A program made the translations under genes and the position numbers. A DNA stretch of 64,000 bases from Mesaphorura yosii (lineage: Eukaryota > Arthropoda > Collembola > Poduromorpha > Tullbergiidae), in assembly GCA_009869945.1 (NCBI GenBank), contig WIXG01000075.1, positions 186,001 through 250,000 on the forward strand, in the 5' to 3' direction. The notes beneath the pieces are model-generated. The model had not been told where the DNA came from. It did not search any database and saw nothing but the letters and a program-made list of their open reading frames with translations. Numbering within the stretch: the stretch's first letter is position 1; each line of letters starts with the position of its first letter. Of the stretch, positions 15,746 to 40,649 are shown one piece after another.

Positions 15746-16901
15746 TTAATCAAAACTCTTTCTCTTCTGGTCCCTTTCTAATTTTGGCAATTTTTTAGGC
15801 TTTGTATTGCTCGTATTTTTCTCATCTCCAGGATTGTTGACGAAAAAGTAGCCGCCAAGTGCTCCGATGATCGCAAAACTGACAGCACTGTGCAACGGGC
15901 CGTAAAATCCACCTGCAAACAATGAAAGCACGTCATCGCATGTTTGCGTCCGTGCTTTGGCGTCGAGCCCGCAGCGAATTGGGATGAGAATCAAAATTTT
16001 ACCACGAAGTCCATAGAAACTCCCACAAACTCCTCCAGCAATGGCAGTATTCTTCCAGTCTCGTCGATTTCGGTACTGAATATGGCAAAGGACCGCATAA
16101 GGAATGTGAATACCTGCATAAGTTCAGACATAATGGCAGAAACCTCTTCAACTTTTCTGTCCACATTGTCAAACAGGAGCCCGGCAATTAGTCCACGTTT
16201 ATACATCCGCCAAATAAGAGAACCACTCTTGATGTACAGTTCGGCGATCTTGCGCGTTTGAGGTAGATTCCAGTTGGCGGGGATCAGAGTGTTTGGCGTA
16301 AGAAAACGGCTCGAGGACAGGAATCTGGTTTGAAATCCGACAAATATTCCACCTTGACGAGAGACCAGAATTAAAAAGTAAACATTAAGCCGGAGCCACG
16401 AGCAGAGAAGACCAAATACTGACCTATTGCGCCTAGCAAGCACTGCTTCAGCAGAATAGAGATGACAAAGTACCTTTCGAGCTCGGGATCGTCTCGGCGC
16501 TTCATTGGCACAATGTACGTTATGTTTTGATCTCTTCCCTCGATACGTTTACTAGTTTCCATGAGCAGTAACTGCAGATTCGTGGTGTTGTCCAGCTTCC
16601 GCCGGTACTCCTGCTCCTTCTTCTCAAGCGAGGACACGGGTTTGTTGTTGGGTCTAATCTTAATCGGATCCTCCGCAGATTTCGAGCTCTTTGTGGATGA
16701 CGATGGCGATGACTCATTTCTGGAAGCAGCATCACCGGCGCCATTTTTGGCAGACTCGTTTGTCTTTTCACTTTTCCGCCTTTCGATGTACTTCGCCCAG
16801 AAGTCGGATTGATACGGTTTATTTGGCGGTGAAGGCGAGTCTTTCGCGCTCTTCTTCTTGCTCCGACTGTCATTTTTGTCCTGGGTAGGCTTATCAGGCA
16901 T
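15746..16901 (-). CDS. TIMMDC1: TIMMDC1-like Tim17-family complex I assembly factor
   Basis: Minus-strand exons 16901-16424, 16352-16144, 16075-16003 and 15912-15746 give about 308 aa. A 130-residue polar Lys/Ser-rich N-terminus precedes four hydrophobic segments rich in small residues: KQCLLGAIGGIFVGF, MYKRGLIAGLLFDNV, TAIAGGVCGSFYGLRGG and SFAIIGALGGYFF. This is the Tim17/22/23 fold. The stretch across the 68-base intron, LFDNVDRKVEE then YRNRRDW and IAGGVCGS, lines up without gaps with the corresponding part of vertebrate TIMMDC1 (YRNKD, IAGAVTGS). TIMMDC1 is an inner mitochondrial membrane factor needed to assemble the membrane arm of respiratory complex I. The N-terminal extension looks unlike a classical presequence and is not seen in the vertebrate protein as I know it. 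The gene converges with the secreted protein gene. Confidence 0.65.
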
Positions 16902-17643
16902 TTAAGCAGGAGAATTCTACTCAGGATTTTGTTACATTGATACTTTTGACTGGATCGTCGATTTTGAGTGAGACTGCCGTCTCTGCTTATGCATATGTAA
17001 TTTAGAACCTGGTGCGCCGTCGTCCACAGGCAGTTCTTGGCCAAGCTGCACAAAATTGGTTTAATTACTGGCCATAATTCAGCAATAGATTAGCTGGGGT
17101 GACTGTCACGCCAACAAAATGGCAGCAACCCTATTAGTATCAGGGCGGCCATGACGGGCGTGTGCAATAAAACAAAGATTTCCTTACACAACTTTAAGTT
17201 CGTTACGTGCATTTGTTCCTTTCTCCTGCTAAAAAATAACGCCTTCAAGCCTTCGCATTACGGCACAAGAGTTTGAAGTAAATCTGCCCTGACGAGGTCG
17301 AGGTTGTTGTTGGTGGGTTCGTAATTACCTTTGGCCTAGCCTCTGATAATTGAATTCAAATCGTTTCTTGCACCAATCGTAATTTCGTACTTAATGTAAT
17401 CAATAGTACATTGTGTCACGGAACGTCAAATTAATAATTTATTGCTTTTCAGCATCGACGAAGATGCAGTAGCGGCCTGTGAGGCGCCGCGGTCAAGAGA
17501 GTCTACATTTTGTCCAGGCACCGAGTAAGCTGATTTAACAGTTTGAGTTCGCTGCTTACTCTTTGGCTATTCATACTCAATCATCTAATTGCTGCGTTGC
17601 CTAACTGGACACTTGTAAATTCAGTTAAGTACCATTGGCGTTA
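16902..17643. other. Short divergent intergenic region with a candidate 5' UTR exon
   Basis: This stretch separates the TIMMDC1-like gene (minus) from the USP7-like gene (plus) and probably holds both promoters. A segment at 17453-17524 is flanked by a good acceptor (TTGCTTTTCAG) and donor (GTAAGC). A second acceptor ends at 17624. The exon after it has an in-frame TAA before the ATG, so these look like 5' UTR exons. I see no MATH-domain coding sequence here. Confidence 0.4.
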
Positions 17644-20600
17644 ATGATGGCGTGTGGACATGGAGCATCTGCAAATCCCTACAAAGGATTGGGGCGCAAC
17701 GTAAGTGTTACCAAAATATACTTTATGGGTGTCACAGCACAGCATAGCATTGGTCATTAATTCTTCCATTGTCAAAATTACAGGAGTCATTTCAATCACG
17801 CGTGAACGCCGCGATTCGTATACTCTTCAATCTCAGTCCGATCAGAAAGGCTTTGTTGGCAATACCAGCCTTCACAGACATTCCGGACATAAGCGAGCTA
17901 GACCTAGATAAACTGGTTGGAAGCCCTCCACCTGGTACTGCTGTCGGGAAAGGTTCAAAACAAATTCATCTGGCGGGTCTAGCATTGCGATACGGTGTTC
18001 TGATGGCTCTTCGAACCTTCTACTCTCCGCATGACTCAACTCGACATCTGGGACCGTTGGGTGGTTTATACTCCATGGAGGCATTTGTCGAAGATTTAGA
18101 GGATATTCTACAATATCTTCTGATGATTGTTGCTGAATCTGTAAGTGTCGCTTGTTGACTTCTATTTACTGATTAAGTCGGAAGTCAGTGCTCAATGTTT
18201 TAATCTAGTTTGAGGGAATAAAAAAACTTGCCGGCGAGTACGAGTCTATTGAAAACTTGGCCAAGATTCGCGAAAAATCTATATTCTACACTAGTGAAGA
18301 AAGTCCCGTTTCCTATATTAAGGATTCTTCGCACTACTTTTTCCGGTTTCGGGTGGGCACGCCCGACGTTAAAAACATTTACGAATCCTTCGCCGACAGG
18401 TGTTGCGAAAGAAGTATAATGTACAACGAATACTTCGATGTAAGACAATTTTGGCTAGTTGATTGCTGGAATGCTAATAAGTATTTCTCGTCTAATATAC
18501 TACTATTAACAGGGAACGCAAGACTGTGAAGTTAGGAACAAGATATCCTTTTCCCTCCCTGAAGTTCTGCTAATCCGACTTCACCGAGATGAAGTCGATG
18601 AAGACAACGTCACTTCTAACGTTATCCCGTATGAGTTTTATGAGGAAATAGACTTGACTAAATTTTCTGGAGATAAGTCCAAGTATGACTCAATAAAAAA
18701 GGATGTTGTGCGTCAACTGTACACTCTATTCGCGGTATGACACAATTCCTGCAGTAAAAACTGAATTAACTAAACATATGACTATACTTTGAGTTTGTCT
18801 TCTGTTTACAGGTGGTAGGTGAACGGAAGGACACTGTCAGGGGCAAGTGTTCGTATCCTGTCTTCATCTGTTTCGGTCAAAAGTGGTCCAAGTATGAAGA
18901 TGACGAAGTTAATATAACCACGAAGGACGAGGCAATTAAGGGAAATTATGGGACAAAAGTAATGAAATACATTTATGAGCGGGGTCCCTTGAACCTCTCC
19001 GTTGGCAGTCGAAGTGGAAATTGAAAACGGATGTGCTCTGTAATTCCAGGCAAACGGCTCCCTTGCACACGTACTGGTGTACATTAAGAGCAGTTCAATA
19101 GACAAGATTTTTCAAGCCCTGGATGTGGAGGATATTCCTCGTCACGTCCAGAAACAGCTGAAAGTTTTGGCACGAGTAATATGATAGCAAAAAGCTATGA
19201 ACTATGGACTAATATTCTAAATTCGCTCATTTGATTTTCAGAAGGAAAAAGCTGAAAGACGAGTGCCGACGTACAAATCGGTGACTCTATTGACAGAAGA
19301 TACGTTTCGTGAAAATGAGGGATTGAATTTGTTCCAGGAGCCTGGACCTCTTCCATCACTTCACGTCCCAATTCCTCACTCGAAATTGGTTGAGGTTCGA
19401 GTCGGAGTTGGGCTATCAAGGTTTTATGAAATCGTTGCGTATGTTTTGGTATGCAATTAGATAATCAGCACGAATTTTTACACTGGTCAAATGAGAGCAG
19501 TGGTTGAAATATTTGACTCATTTATTGATTCCTCAGAACTGGGAAGTTAACCGCTTACGAATTTGGGTGTTACACAAGTGCAACACTCGAGAAAACGTTT
19601 TTCGACCAATGTTACTCTCCAAACAATTTTTGTCGTCTGATACATTCAAGAATCGCATTCAAGACGAGGAATTCATGTTTGTCGAGCACTACTCCTACGA
19701 CCCGATTCCAAAGTTTAATGTTCACAATGACTCTCTGATCTTTCTGAAAGAATTCGACGGGAAAAGTCTACTCTATATGGGATGCCTTTATGTTCCGTGG
19801 GAAATGACATTGGGTAAGGGAAAGGAATTCACGAATAAACGTGCAAATTAGTCCACATCAATTTTGCAATTTTTTTCCAGAAAATTTATTTCGTGAAATT
19901 CTTGGTCCAAACGGGCTACAGAAGAGAGGTCACAAAGTTCGAGTTTATCACGAAATTGGCGGAAAGGATGATATAAATGACTTGGTAAAGCAGATTGAAG
20001 ATTGGTCTCAGACAGTGGTGGAGGCTCTAGCAGCTGACGAAAGCAGCGGGGAAATTCTTATTATTGACTGGACAAATTCGAACGAGGACGTAGACGGCAC
20101 AAATTCTGAAGCTGAAAAACTTTGCGCCTGTTGTTGTACTGACAAACACGTTGATGCAGCTAACCACGTCCGATTCCTCAAATACAGGTGAGCGGTGAGC
20201 GTGCTCTGTTTATTAGCTTGCACTAATAAAGTTATTTTCGTTCTAAAACATGGAATTTGTGTAGGAGGACCGTAGAGTTTGTAAATTACGACCAGCCGAA
20301 AGAACGTAATGCCCTTGACATCAATACCAGGATTTGCTGCGGGAGTATCCCAACCTTGCTTGAAGAACGCTTGGGCCTAGACACAAAAGGCATTCGATTC
20401 TTCGCATGTTCAGCCGGGTAAGAGAGGAGAAAATATAAAATAGCATGAACAGAAATAAATACGCTATCATTGTCAGAGCATTCTGACTGAATTCTCCAGT
20501 ATTTTTTCTTTGCAGCGGAGACCCAGAGCGGGTGATTCATCACGAAGGCAGTCATGAGTGCGAGAAGCTCTCGAAATTTTTGCCAAGCGACAAAGATTAC

Positions 20601-20711
20601 ACATACGGAACAGATTTTAAAATACTCTACCGTCTGAAACCCAAAGTCATCCCTAACAATGGCCCGATCTGTAATGGGAATGGTGAAGAGGCTTCCACTT
20701 CATCGTGTTAG
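17644..20711 (+). CDS. USP7-like ubiquitin hydrolase homologue, catalytic residues lost
   Basis: Eleven exons: 17644-17700, 17784-18140, 18209-18439, 18513-18734, 18812-18958, 19050-19175, 19242-19448, 19537-19813, 19881-20187, 20265-20417, 20516-20711; about 759 aa, all phases consistent. It aligns along the catalytic core and C-terminal ubiquitin-like domains of USP7: NIYESF, the DDEVNITTKDEAIKGNYG block, AHVLVYIKSSS, DIPRHVQKQLK, then NWEVNRLRIWVLHK and SLLYMGCLYVP. The Cys box GATCYMN is SFQSRVN, placing Ser24 at the nucleophile. The HGGHY box is replaced by KCSYPVFICF, so the catalytic His is gone too; an acidic EDDEV remains. There is no N-terminal MATH domain: an in-frame stop lies directly upstream of the start. 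The C-terminus extends beyond USP7 with a CACCC segment. Probably a catalytically dead ubiquitin-binding or adaptor paralogue. Confidence 0.85.
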
Positions 20712-21073
20712 AAAAGTTAGAAGGCTAAATTCGTTGAATTGAATGAGACTTCAATTAATTGGCATTAGATTAATGTTAAGTTCGTTAGCTACCTTTAAGT
20801 ATGACTCAATTCTTTCAAACGATACTTTGCTTCAATTAATTTACTTTACTTAATTTGGCTTCAAGTTAATTTGTCTAGTACAAGTACAAGTAACGCGTGC
20901 TGATTTCGGACCAATTGCCAATTGGGGGAATTAAAGGATGATTGGTTTGCTTGAGCCATGACTAATAACTGATGGCTTTAATAACCTAATGCATTTTTAT
21001 TTCAATTTGCGTCGCCTCATTTGGAACAGTCTGAACTTGGAACCAAACAAACTTGAACTTAGCAAACGCGAAA
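20712..21073. other. Short AT-rich intergenic stretch
   Basis: It holds imperfect direct copies of CTTCAATTAATT (about 20750, 20830 and 20862) and no gene. It separates the USP7-like gene from the DM9 remnant. Confidence 0.4.
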
Positions 21074-21782
21074 ATGATGTCGTTTTTATGTGGCGCTCGT
21101 GTGCTCTTGAGTTTTCTGGCAATGTCTGCATTTGGAAATTGTCAAATGCTGTACGGCGAAGAGGAGACAAGTGGAGGTAAGCGATTTGCTTTTTGTATGG
21201 AGTACGAGTTACTAGTGGCTTGTTGGTTCGTGTAATTTTAGGCTGTGGGATCCTCATCTATTGGGTAAGAGGTGGTTTTTTCCTTCCGGACAATCTCCTT
21301 GTCGAAAGCGGACGTGAGCTTGCTTCCGGCAACAGAGGCGATCGATTTTACATTTGCAGAGCTCGGCTAAATGAGAAGCTTCACATTGGCAAGTTCATCA
21401 AGAGTGAATCGCCGTAAACTACAAGCGAATGCTGGGTGACTGATGTAGAGCAGGAACACGTCTTCATTGGATCAAACGAGTACGAAGTGCTTGCTGACTA
21501 CGACAAAGGGGCAAGGAACTTGGTCTGGGACGATCCGACAAATTCTGGAGAGCCGCTACTGAACGCATTTTGGGCTGGCAGTCGACACAAGGGAGATCAA
21601 TTTACGTCGGGCAATGCAGCATCAAAAGTTTCGACAAAAAGAAAATAATCCCGGGCGGAGTGGTCGGCGCCTCGCCGAATGCAATGATGAACGTCGCATT
21701 TAACAGGGAATCGCCAGCATGCATGCCAGAGAATATCTCACTTGCAATAGTGAATAAAAGTCGATATGGAGTTGAATATTGA
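21074..21782 (+). pseudogene. DM9-repeat secreted protein gene with in-frame stop and frameshift
   Basis: Exon 1 (21074-21176) encodes a signal peptide (LLSFLAMSAFGNCQM) and joins in phase to an exon starting at 21242. That exon encodes a DM9 repeat (DUF3421): IYWVRGGFFLPDNLL, FYICRARLNEKLHIGKFI, then SNEYEVLAD. An in-frame TAA (21415-21417) interrupts it after KSESP, although the same frame continues as SECWVTDVEQEH with DM9 similarity. The second repeat begins GEPLLNAFWAGSR and then needs a one-base frame change near 21580-21600 to continue as RSIYVGQCSIKSFDKKKIIP. DM9 proteins bind mannose and act in invertebrate immunity in some species. Two independent lesions in one short gene suggest a pseudogene; an assembly error or a small unseen intron is the alternative. 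Confidence 0.6.
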
Positions 21783-38245: not shown

Positions 38246-40649
38246 ATGACTAGCAAAAGAAAACCTTTCTCCAGAAGACTCTCGTCCTTCTTCTCTAGTG
38301 GAAGTCAAAGCCTGGATGAAGATTCGACGAAGAAGTCTCAGAATCAGGTAAGAAGCCAATCAGTTGCTTCTCAATTCAGGATGCCCACACCATCCTTTTT
38401 GTTAATTAATGTGTCGCCAATCGCCTAATTTCCAACAGAGCGTGACCGAGCTCGAACGCAAAGTCGAAGAGTTGACCTCAAAATGCGTGACTTTAGAAAC
38501 GAAGCTCAAGAAGGAGCAAAGCAAATGCTCGGAATGGAAGAAGCAAATGGTGCAACTTGTCCTGCAGGTACTTTCCTTATCAGTTACAATTAAAAAAGCC
38601 AATTAAACTTTTTGTCGCTTTCCTACTTCTTAGAAACATGAATCCAGTGGCCTGATAAATACGAGGAAGTCTACGAACAGTCTGCTTAGCCATCGAAAGT
38701 ACGTGTCGCACGATAATCTCCTGGAGCCAGTTCCTTCCACATCGAACTTTTACATGGATAACAATCACCCACTTCAAAACGAGAAAATTGCTCGCCGCCT
38801 GCTGCAGTACCCGAAAAAGGAAGATCTCTACCGTGCGCGTTTGGTCTGCACTACCTGGAATGGGCTCGGAAAACGGGAGATTGCACGACGCGTTGATGCG
38901 CACATCCATCTTGACAATGTCAACAACCTGCGCAAATTCCAGCAAGTTCAGCACCTTCGTGCCGATGGCGATGCATTCTACCAAAATTTCTATTTTCATT
39001 ACATGCCACAGGCGCATACCCAAAATTTTGGCGGTGGCGGTGACCATCGAAGAAGTTCGGTCCTCCCACTTGAAATTTGTCCAAGCGAGAATCGTACGGA
39101 ATTCAAGAAGACGATGCAAATCATCGGAGATTACGCCAAGAAGTTGACGCTGGCGTACACCGACAGCGAAATACTGGAGACAGTGCTAGACTCTTGTCAG
39201 GAACTTGAAACGCTGAATTTAACCGTGGGAATTCCGCTTCTGAACTCGTGTCATAGTCTCAAAAATGTGAAGCCACTTCGAGCGTTGAAAGTGCTGTCCT
39301 TCACGTTACACTCGACACGAGATCATCGACTCACGGACAAGCACGAAGAGAATTTTCTTAACGTTTTCAAGCTGCTGCTGAGCTTGTCTCAGGCGACGTT
39401 GTCCAAACTCACCGTAACTATTGTCGGCTCCTTCGCAGAAGAAGGAAGCCATTTTGGAAATACTCTGGCTCAATGTTTACTCAAAATGAAGCCTGCACGG
39501 CTCAACGAGTTGCATATCAATTCGTTCCCCATCGAAAAGAAGCTTATCGCCGAAATCTTCAATGCACGCTTCGAACTCAAGGCGCTGGGCGTCGGACTCG
39601 TGGATTGGAAATCAGCCTATGAAATTCTTCCTCTGCTTTACCGAACAAAGCCAACTGCGTCCAAATTGCAAAGACTTTCCGTCCACGTTCATTGCAGATG
39701 CGACACCACAAGCGAATGGCTAAATAGCGGGCTTGATGACCTCGTCACAAACGGATTTAGTTACATGAAGTTGCTGACGACATTCGATGTGATTCCGTCG
39801 AAGCTCCTGGTCGAGGGAAAGTACCGATTCGAGCGTCTGCACCCGACCCAATCGCATTACTTAGTAAATCCGATTGTTGGAGTGCCCGTGCTCAAATCAA
39901 TTGAGATTGAGCCTCATCACGTGTTTAAAGACATAAAAGTTGATGGATCACCGTCGTCCACACCGGAAGTCCAGCACAAAGTGAACCGATTCAGATTCGT
40001 ACACACTTTGGTTCTGAAGCGTGAACCTGCGACGTGTGACATGCTGAGGAAATGTGGCAGACTCCTGTCCATCTCATTAACGAAGCTAGAATTCGTTCCG
40101 CACGACTCCAGCGCGCTAGTCGCCGTCTGGAATGGACTCCCGAATCTGGAAGAACTGAAAATTCATCCCACGGACGCGATTCCGGATTTAGAGTCTGTGA
40201 TTATCGGAATGAGTGCGTCGGATTGCAAGAAACTTCGCGAGGATCCAACCGTCGCAATTTTAATCGGGATGACCGAAGGAAAGACGCTGAAGCATCTGCA
40301 GAACCTGCCTTCCATTAGATTATTGAGAAGTAAGAAATATTACGCTCCCCATACAAAAAGGTGGACTCCATTTATCTGTTTGCGCAGAGCTCCGAAGTCT
40401 CGATGTTGGCAACGAGAAGTATTTAACTGATTTGAGTGTGCTCCTGGCTTTTGTCAAGATGAAGACGCTTACGGCTTTGAGATTTAGATACAAAGTAAGT
40501 TACTATTACTGGCTTGGCTGCTGAATTCATTCAATTTTAGTGCGTGCTGCATTATTTTCTTCACTCGCATTTGCTTTCAGGGCAGTTCTTCAAGTATCCG
40601 TCTTCTGCGGTCAGAAATGCCAGGAATTTACGTGGACACTTGGAAATAA
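38246..40649 (+). CDS. F-box-like protein with coiled coil and LRR-like region
   Basis: Exons 38246-38347, 38439-38567, 38634-40329, 40388-40494 and 40581-40649 give about 700 aa, all phases consistent. A basic Ser-rich start (RKPFSRRLSSFFSSGSQS) is followed by a heptad-type coiled coil in exon 2 (ELERKVEELTSKCVTLETKL). Exon 3 opens with an F-box-like segment: IARRLLQYPKKEDLYRARLV then CTTWNG. The remainder has irregular leucine-rich stretches (LETLNLTV, LRALKVLSF, LTALRFRY) consistent with a degenerate LRR solenoid. By family it would be a substrate-recognition subunit of an SCF ubiquitin ligase. The combination of coiled coil and F-box is not one I can name. Its 3' end converges with mRpL30, about 110 bases stop to stop. 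Confidence 0.7.

Follow-up and report, generated by a model that had tools for sequence, protein, structure and literature searches.

A putative catalytically dead USP7 paralogue retaining the USP core and UBL1–3 in Mesaphorura yosii

USP39, USP52, USP53, and USP54 belong to separate USP subfamilies, and USP39 is a pseudo-deubiquitinase whose catalytic set is incomplete or has been classed as such. USP52, USP53, and USP54, once classed as inactive, resemble the gene described here in having a USP fold and a catalytic set that is incomplete or was so classed. Later work reported activity of USP52 (PMC5876348) and of USP53 and USP54 (PMC12037411), and caution is therefore needed in calling any USP dead from sequence. 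In the present gene, all three triad residues are replaced. Inactive paralogues that regulate an active partner have been described for the AdoMetDC prozyme (PMC5201418) and for trypanosomatid deoxyhypusine synthase (PMC3663545). These systems share with the present case an inactive duplicate beside an active enzyme, whereas the enzymes are unrelated. Among the matches listed in a literature search covering mainly open-access papers, no title or abstract opening named a catalytically dead USP7 paralogue.

The closest described system is USP7 (HAUSP) itself. The gene is like USP7 of human and of the same genome in its USP fold, UBL1–3, and USP7_ICP0_bdg domain, and all ten of its introns agree in position and phase with those of the latter. 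It differs in its identity of only 28% to that USP7, in its replaced triad, in the MATH domain, UBL4–5, and C-terminal tail, none of which was found, in a second exon longer by 28 codons, and in a Cys-rich insertion after UBL2. The predicted protein would be a pseudo-deubiquitinase, a known kind with a USP fold and missing catalytic residues. In mouse embryonic stem cells, USP7 has been reported to act partly without catalysis, through RYBP retention on chromatin (PMC10919355). A natural copy lacking catalysis and the activation module but keeping UBL1–3 would separate the two roles of USP7 and reveal which one can be maintained by evolution without the other. Provided that it is expressed, the copy would further be a test case for regulation of an active USP by its dead paralogue, as known from other enzyme families. 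We give a probability of roughly 60% to the reading that a catalytically dead USP7 core with UBL1–3 has been retained for non-catalytic binding.

Gene model and relationship to USP7

The window is a stretch of 64,000 nucleotides of contig WIXG01000075.1. Splicing of the exon model at 17644–20711 on the forward strand joined 11 exons into 2280 nt encoding 759 amino acid residues and a stop codon. All ten introns, of 66–98 nt each, have GT-AG borders; seven are in phase 0, one in phase 1, and two in phase 2. The eleven in-phase exons of the original prediction therefore hold in number and in frame, but the introns are not uniformly of phase 0. The spliced frame contains the terminal stop only, against 28–54 stops in each of the five alternative frames of the spliced sequence. 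GC contents at codon positions 1, 2, and 3 were 0.518, 0.354, and 0.458, respectively, similar to the values of 0.509, 0.331, and 0.431 in the canonical USP7 gene of the same genome (see below), and that of the pooled introns was 0.349. The predicted features are as follows.

17644..17700, +: exon 1 (aa 1–19), predicted 5′ end; remnant of the USP7 exon closing the MATH–catalytic linker
17784..18140, +: exon 2 (aa 20–138), Cys-box/thumb plus switching-loop exon, exceeding its canonical counterpart by 28 codons
17793..17798, +: Gln23-Ser24 at the catalytic Cys223 position, the aligned residue varying with the placement of gaps
18209..18439, +: exon 3 (aa 139–215), 231 nt, equal in length to the canonical exon; presumably fingers/palm
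18513..18734, +: exon 4 (aa 216–289), by exon-wise alignment; presumably palm
18812..18958, +: exon 5 (aa 290–338), His box and Asp region, with the KW.K..DD...TK.EAI motif retained
18845..18847, +: Lys301 replacing catalytic His464, by exon-wise alignment
18896..18898, +: Glu318 replacing catalytic Asp481 (Asp319 keeps D482), by exon-wise alignment
19050..19175, +: exon 6 (aa 339–380), last part of the USP fold (LVYI), then connector
19242..19448, +: exon 7 (aa 381–449), UBL1
19537..19813, +: exon 8 (aa 450–541), UBL1/UBL2, by alignment and Pfam
19881..20187, +: exon 9 (aa 542–643), UBL2, then a Cys-rich insertion (CACCC) ahead of UBL3
20036..20053, +: UBL2 pocket equivalents Asp594 (D758), Glu595 (E759), Ser597 (D762), and Glu599 (D764), by gapped local alignment
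20265..20417, +: exon 10 (aa 644–694), UBL3
20516..20711, +: exon 11 (aa 695–759 and stop), closing part of UBL3 followed by a non-homologous tail

The UBL borders follow human numbering. In exon 1, HG...GLGRN aligns with PHG...GLKNQ of USP7. The Cys-rich insertion LCACCCTDKHVD lies at 20120–20158 (+), at the UBL2/UBL3 junction, and is absent from the canonical and human USP7 in the alignment.

The USP7 relationship proposed from the letters alone was borne out by several comparisons. In a phmmer search against PDB chains, which covers proteins with solved structures only, USP7 accounted for 36 of the 38 sequences returned at E ≤ 1 (best E 1.1e-24, query residues 96–604); the other two were aspartyl-tRNA synthetase (E 0.18 and 0.25). 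In Pfam, USP7_ICP0_bdg (PF12436) matched with E 1.7e-18 and 67.3 bits (cut-off 27) over profile positions 2–234 of 241, and UCH matched with E 5.3e-8 and 33.2 bits (cut-off 23.9); no further domain was found in the protein at E ≤ 1. USP47 and USP40 form a MATH-less, UBL-bearing USP group, and a fast-diverged member of that group, rather than a USP7 duplicate, would also lack MATH while carrying C-terminal UBLs. This origin is very improbable given the USP7_ICP0_bdg match, the ten introns common with the local USP7, and PDB matches at E ≤ 1 that include USP7 at 1e-24 and no USP47, the structures of which (PMC10516900) may lie outside the searched set.

A search for the canonical USP7 gene, suggested as a check in the original prediction, located an apparently intact gene on contig C119 (G000:C119, L022) of this genome, which comprises 93 Mb in 1127 contigs. 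Its model comprises 17 exons and 1085 residues with a partial 5′ end and no internal stop, and it carries MATH, NQGATCYMN, HGGHY, UBL1–5, and the C-terminal tail. Its core is 58% identical to human USP7 (398/681), and the window copy is 28% identical to the canonical protein (179/641) and 27% identical to human USP7 (172/648). Exon-by-exon searches of the genome with USP7_C2 and USP7_ICP0_bdg gave matches on C119 only, and the protein of the window copy matched only itself. These searches miss known sites (UCH and PF12436 miss the window gene, MATH misses the C119 exons, and the window protein misses C119), and they are therefore no proof that further USP7 copies are absent. An exon resembling, by eye, a nuclear-receptor zinc finger lies 3′ of the canonical gene at L022:8620-8760.

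In an alignment built without regard to introns, the ten introns of the window copy paired in order and phase with ten consecutive canonical introns. Five fell in the same column, four were offset by 1–3 columns, and one, in a gapped linker, by 10 columns. Because both genes are rich in phase-0 introns, phases in the random control either followed the mix seen in the gene itself or were disregarded; in neither form did any of 20,000 sets place nine introns within 3, 8, or 10 columns, the maximum being eight. The common introns thus indicate that the locus is a genomic duplicate of USP7; a retrocopy is ruled out by the introns retained in canonical positions and phases. At the 272 sites where canonical and human USP7 differ, the window copy matched the canonical residue at 46, the human residue at 46, and neither at 180, in a comparison of three sequences. 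A recent duplicate, which should lean toward the canonical sequence, is not favoured. The equal match suggests that the duplication is old or that the branch evolved very fast, alternatives that three sequences cannot tell apart.

Catalytic residues and lost ends

The roles of the human USP7 triad residues have been described (PMC10867860). In the exon-by-exon alignment, C223, H464, and D481 are replaced by Ser24, Lys301, and Glu318, respectively, and D482 is kept as Asp319. Counted without gaps from the shared intron, Gln23 rather than Ser24 stands opposite C223; whichever residue aligns there, exon 2 contains no Cys. The loss of the Cys and His boxes claimed earlier was thereby confirmed and extended by the replacement of D481, which had escaped that reading. 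Its assignment of the nucleophile position to Ser24 fared less well: the Cys is gone, but the residue in its place depends on the alignment.

The absence of MATH, also claimed earlier, was upheld in the window. No significant MATH match was obtained there by tblastn, whether the query was the N-terminal part of the canonical protein (best E 0.58) or human USP7 (four rows, none in MATH), or with an unfiltered HMM built from the MATH domains of both proteins (best E 1.3). A missed 5′ MATH exon was rejected on the tblastn and HMM results, and a tblastn row at 16055–16216 (E 2.2), about 1.4 kb upstream and opposite the frame of the neighbouring gene, was taken as chance. That neighbour is divergently oriented, with a putative ATG-led frame starting at 16901, 742 nt from the ATG of the window copy at 17644. 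Between them, at 17453–17524 (+), lies a small frame bounded by AG...GT, IDEDAVAACEAPRSRESTF, which by eye resembles the residues preceding the canonical MATH, EDEDGCARSEATF. Joined by hand from its donor into exon 1, it gave no in-frame connection without a stop. It may be 5′ UTR or a chance resemblance.

At the other end, UBL1–3 are present, whereas searches of the window for UBL4–5 and the activating tail gave no significant match (best E 3.1 by tblastn and 5.9 by unfiltered HMM), so that the C-terminal ubiquitin-like region originally described holds for its first three domains. The stop codon follows closely on UBL3, at a point that corresponds to the inside of an internal exon in the canonical gene, and homology to human USP7 ends at about 880–886, at the UBL3 boundary; the Ubl123 construct used for the human protein ends at 889 (PMC4457826). 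According to a review, UBL4–5 are needed for full activity of USP7 and the other UBLs mediate interactions (PMC10919355). The copy would thus be without triad, activation module, and MATH arm, and would keep UBL1–3 and the USP fold, the latter judged by sequence.

Ser and Lys at or beside the nucleophile and base positions could suggest an enzyme with altered chemistry, for instance with a Ser24 nucleophile and a Lys301 base. We give this almost no credence, because Ser24 is perhaps one residue off the Cys position, D481 is Glu, most of the channel residues differ, and the UBL4–5 activation module was not found in the window. The copy is very probably dead as a USP.

Probable selection on the reading frame

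In a simulation of neutral drift over 692 canonical codons, sequences that had drifted to 36% identity carried 25.9 stops, and those that had reached 24% carried 29.6. Each of eight steps comprised 200 runs; a single run was still stop-free at 89% identity, and below that value every run had acquired a stop. The window copy, at 28% identity, has no internal stop against about 26–30 under neutral drift. Hydrophobic residues matched hydrophobic residues in 199 of 649 columns, where shuffling gave 109.9 (sd 6.2). Among the 473 columns without identity, there were 114 such matches versus 69.9 (sd 5.1). The aligner favours hydrophobic matches, and this excess is therefore inflated and supportive only. 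A synonymous-codon test (z 3.6) was given little weight because its training set included frames that lack a Pfam match. Synonymous sites are expected to be saturated at the divergence of the two genes. Taken together, the open frame set against the simulated stops and the hydrophobic excess argue that the copy was, with good probability, under coding selection during most of its history. Conserved hydrophobic positions stayed hydrophobic in 41 of 52 cases in UBL1–3 and in 78 of 97 cases in the catalytic domain. UBL1–3 are thus not visibly better kept, and the UBL arm is not singled out as the selected part.

An open frame argues for selection in the past and is compatible with recent loss. 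A gene that was silenced or unexpressed only recently and is now drifting, with too little time since the loss for its frame to break, could account for the changes in the triad and in other conserved residues, and a variant hexamer, ATTAAA at 20930, is the first polyadenylation-like signal downstream on the same strand. Such silencing is unlikely in view of a frame that is open across 760 codons at 28% identity and of ten GT-AG introns in canonical phases.

Downstream, at 21035–21760 (+), lies a short gene-like stretch with a start that by eye resembles a signal peptide. Its frame runs across a TAA at 21415–21417 (ORFs 21181–21417 and 21418–21648), so that it is possibly a broken gene; 21418–21645 gave no Pfam match at E ≤ 0.01.

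Ubiquitin channel and UBL2 pocket

The list of channel and switching-loop residues of human USP7 comprised 21 from PMC6188144, F283 and W285, which are among the mutants of PMC10516900, and Q293, 24 in all. One of them, Q417, was omitted since the canonical protein has a different residue there, leaving 23. The residues from PMC6188144 line drug pockets along the path of the ubiquitin tail (D349 in a neighbouring pocket) and are not measured contacts. Five of the 23 (D295, L406, R408, D459, and Y465) are identical in the window copy, compared with 78 of 237 other catalytic-domain positions conserved between canonical and human USP7 (Fisher p 0.35). Charge is reversed or added by D349R, Q351R, Y411R, and H456E. 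The channel thus shows neither special conservation (5/23 vs 78/237) nor any sign of special loss.

Deubiquitinases with the active-site residue changed to alanine can reportedly be high-affinity ubiquitin binders. A dead copy whose USP fold still binds ubiquitin, protecting or reading ubiquitin marks, would agree with this, with the recognition of the fold by Pfam UCH, and with the five retained residues, among them D295, R408, and Y465. We consider this use of the fold rather improbable, since 18 of the 23 conserved channel residues differ, with the four charge changes among them, and the retention rate is not above that of the rest of the domain. The suggestion that the protein might bind ubiquitin accordingly found no support. 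The original description of a dead USP7-like module was supported as far as a MATH-less USP7 paralogue with a lost triad is concerned, which exists beside an apparently intact USP7 on C119.

E759, D762, and D764 of human USP7 have each been reported as needed for ICP0 peptide binding, and GMPS and UHRF1 peptides bind via the same UBL2 pocket (PMC4457826). In a gapped stretch of the alignment, three of the four pocket positions of the window copy are acidic (Asp594, Glu595, and Glu599) and D762 is replaced by Ser597. The copy may compete with active USP7 for partners of the ubiquitin-like domains, as first proposed: UBL1–3 are present and the pocket is matched in part, but the Ser at D762 does not fit.

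The active site and both ends are gone and the middle domains are kept, and the probable function, if any, is therefore partner binding rather than ubiquitin cutting. For retention as a non-catalytic binding module, the preferred reading, we propose that the USP7 gene was duplicated genomically long ago, that the copy was cut down to the USP fold and UBL1–3, and that its catalysis was lost with replacement of the triad. The dead protein would dock KxxxK-type or other partners via UBL1–3 without deubiquitinating them, acting as a scaffold or as a competitor of active USP7. We infer that the protein is made and kept in this capacity; the odds that it works through UBL-mediated docking are put at a little less than even. 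More tentatively, and with only a modest chance of being right, the copy may be an ancient pseudo-USP7, dating from at or near the split of the lineage from vertebrates, which serves as a dedicated antagonist or scaffold. Such a protein would dock the UBL1–3 clients of USP7 and keep them either apart from the active enzyme or next to it, in a dominant-negative manner, both of its ends having been trimmed at domain borders.

Elsewhere in the window, at 38634–40430 (+), an unbroken frame of 598 amino acid residues, without a Pfam match at E ≤ 0.01, has by eye an F-box/LRR-like appearance.
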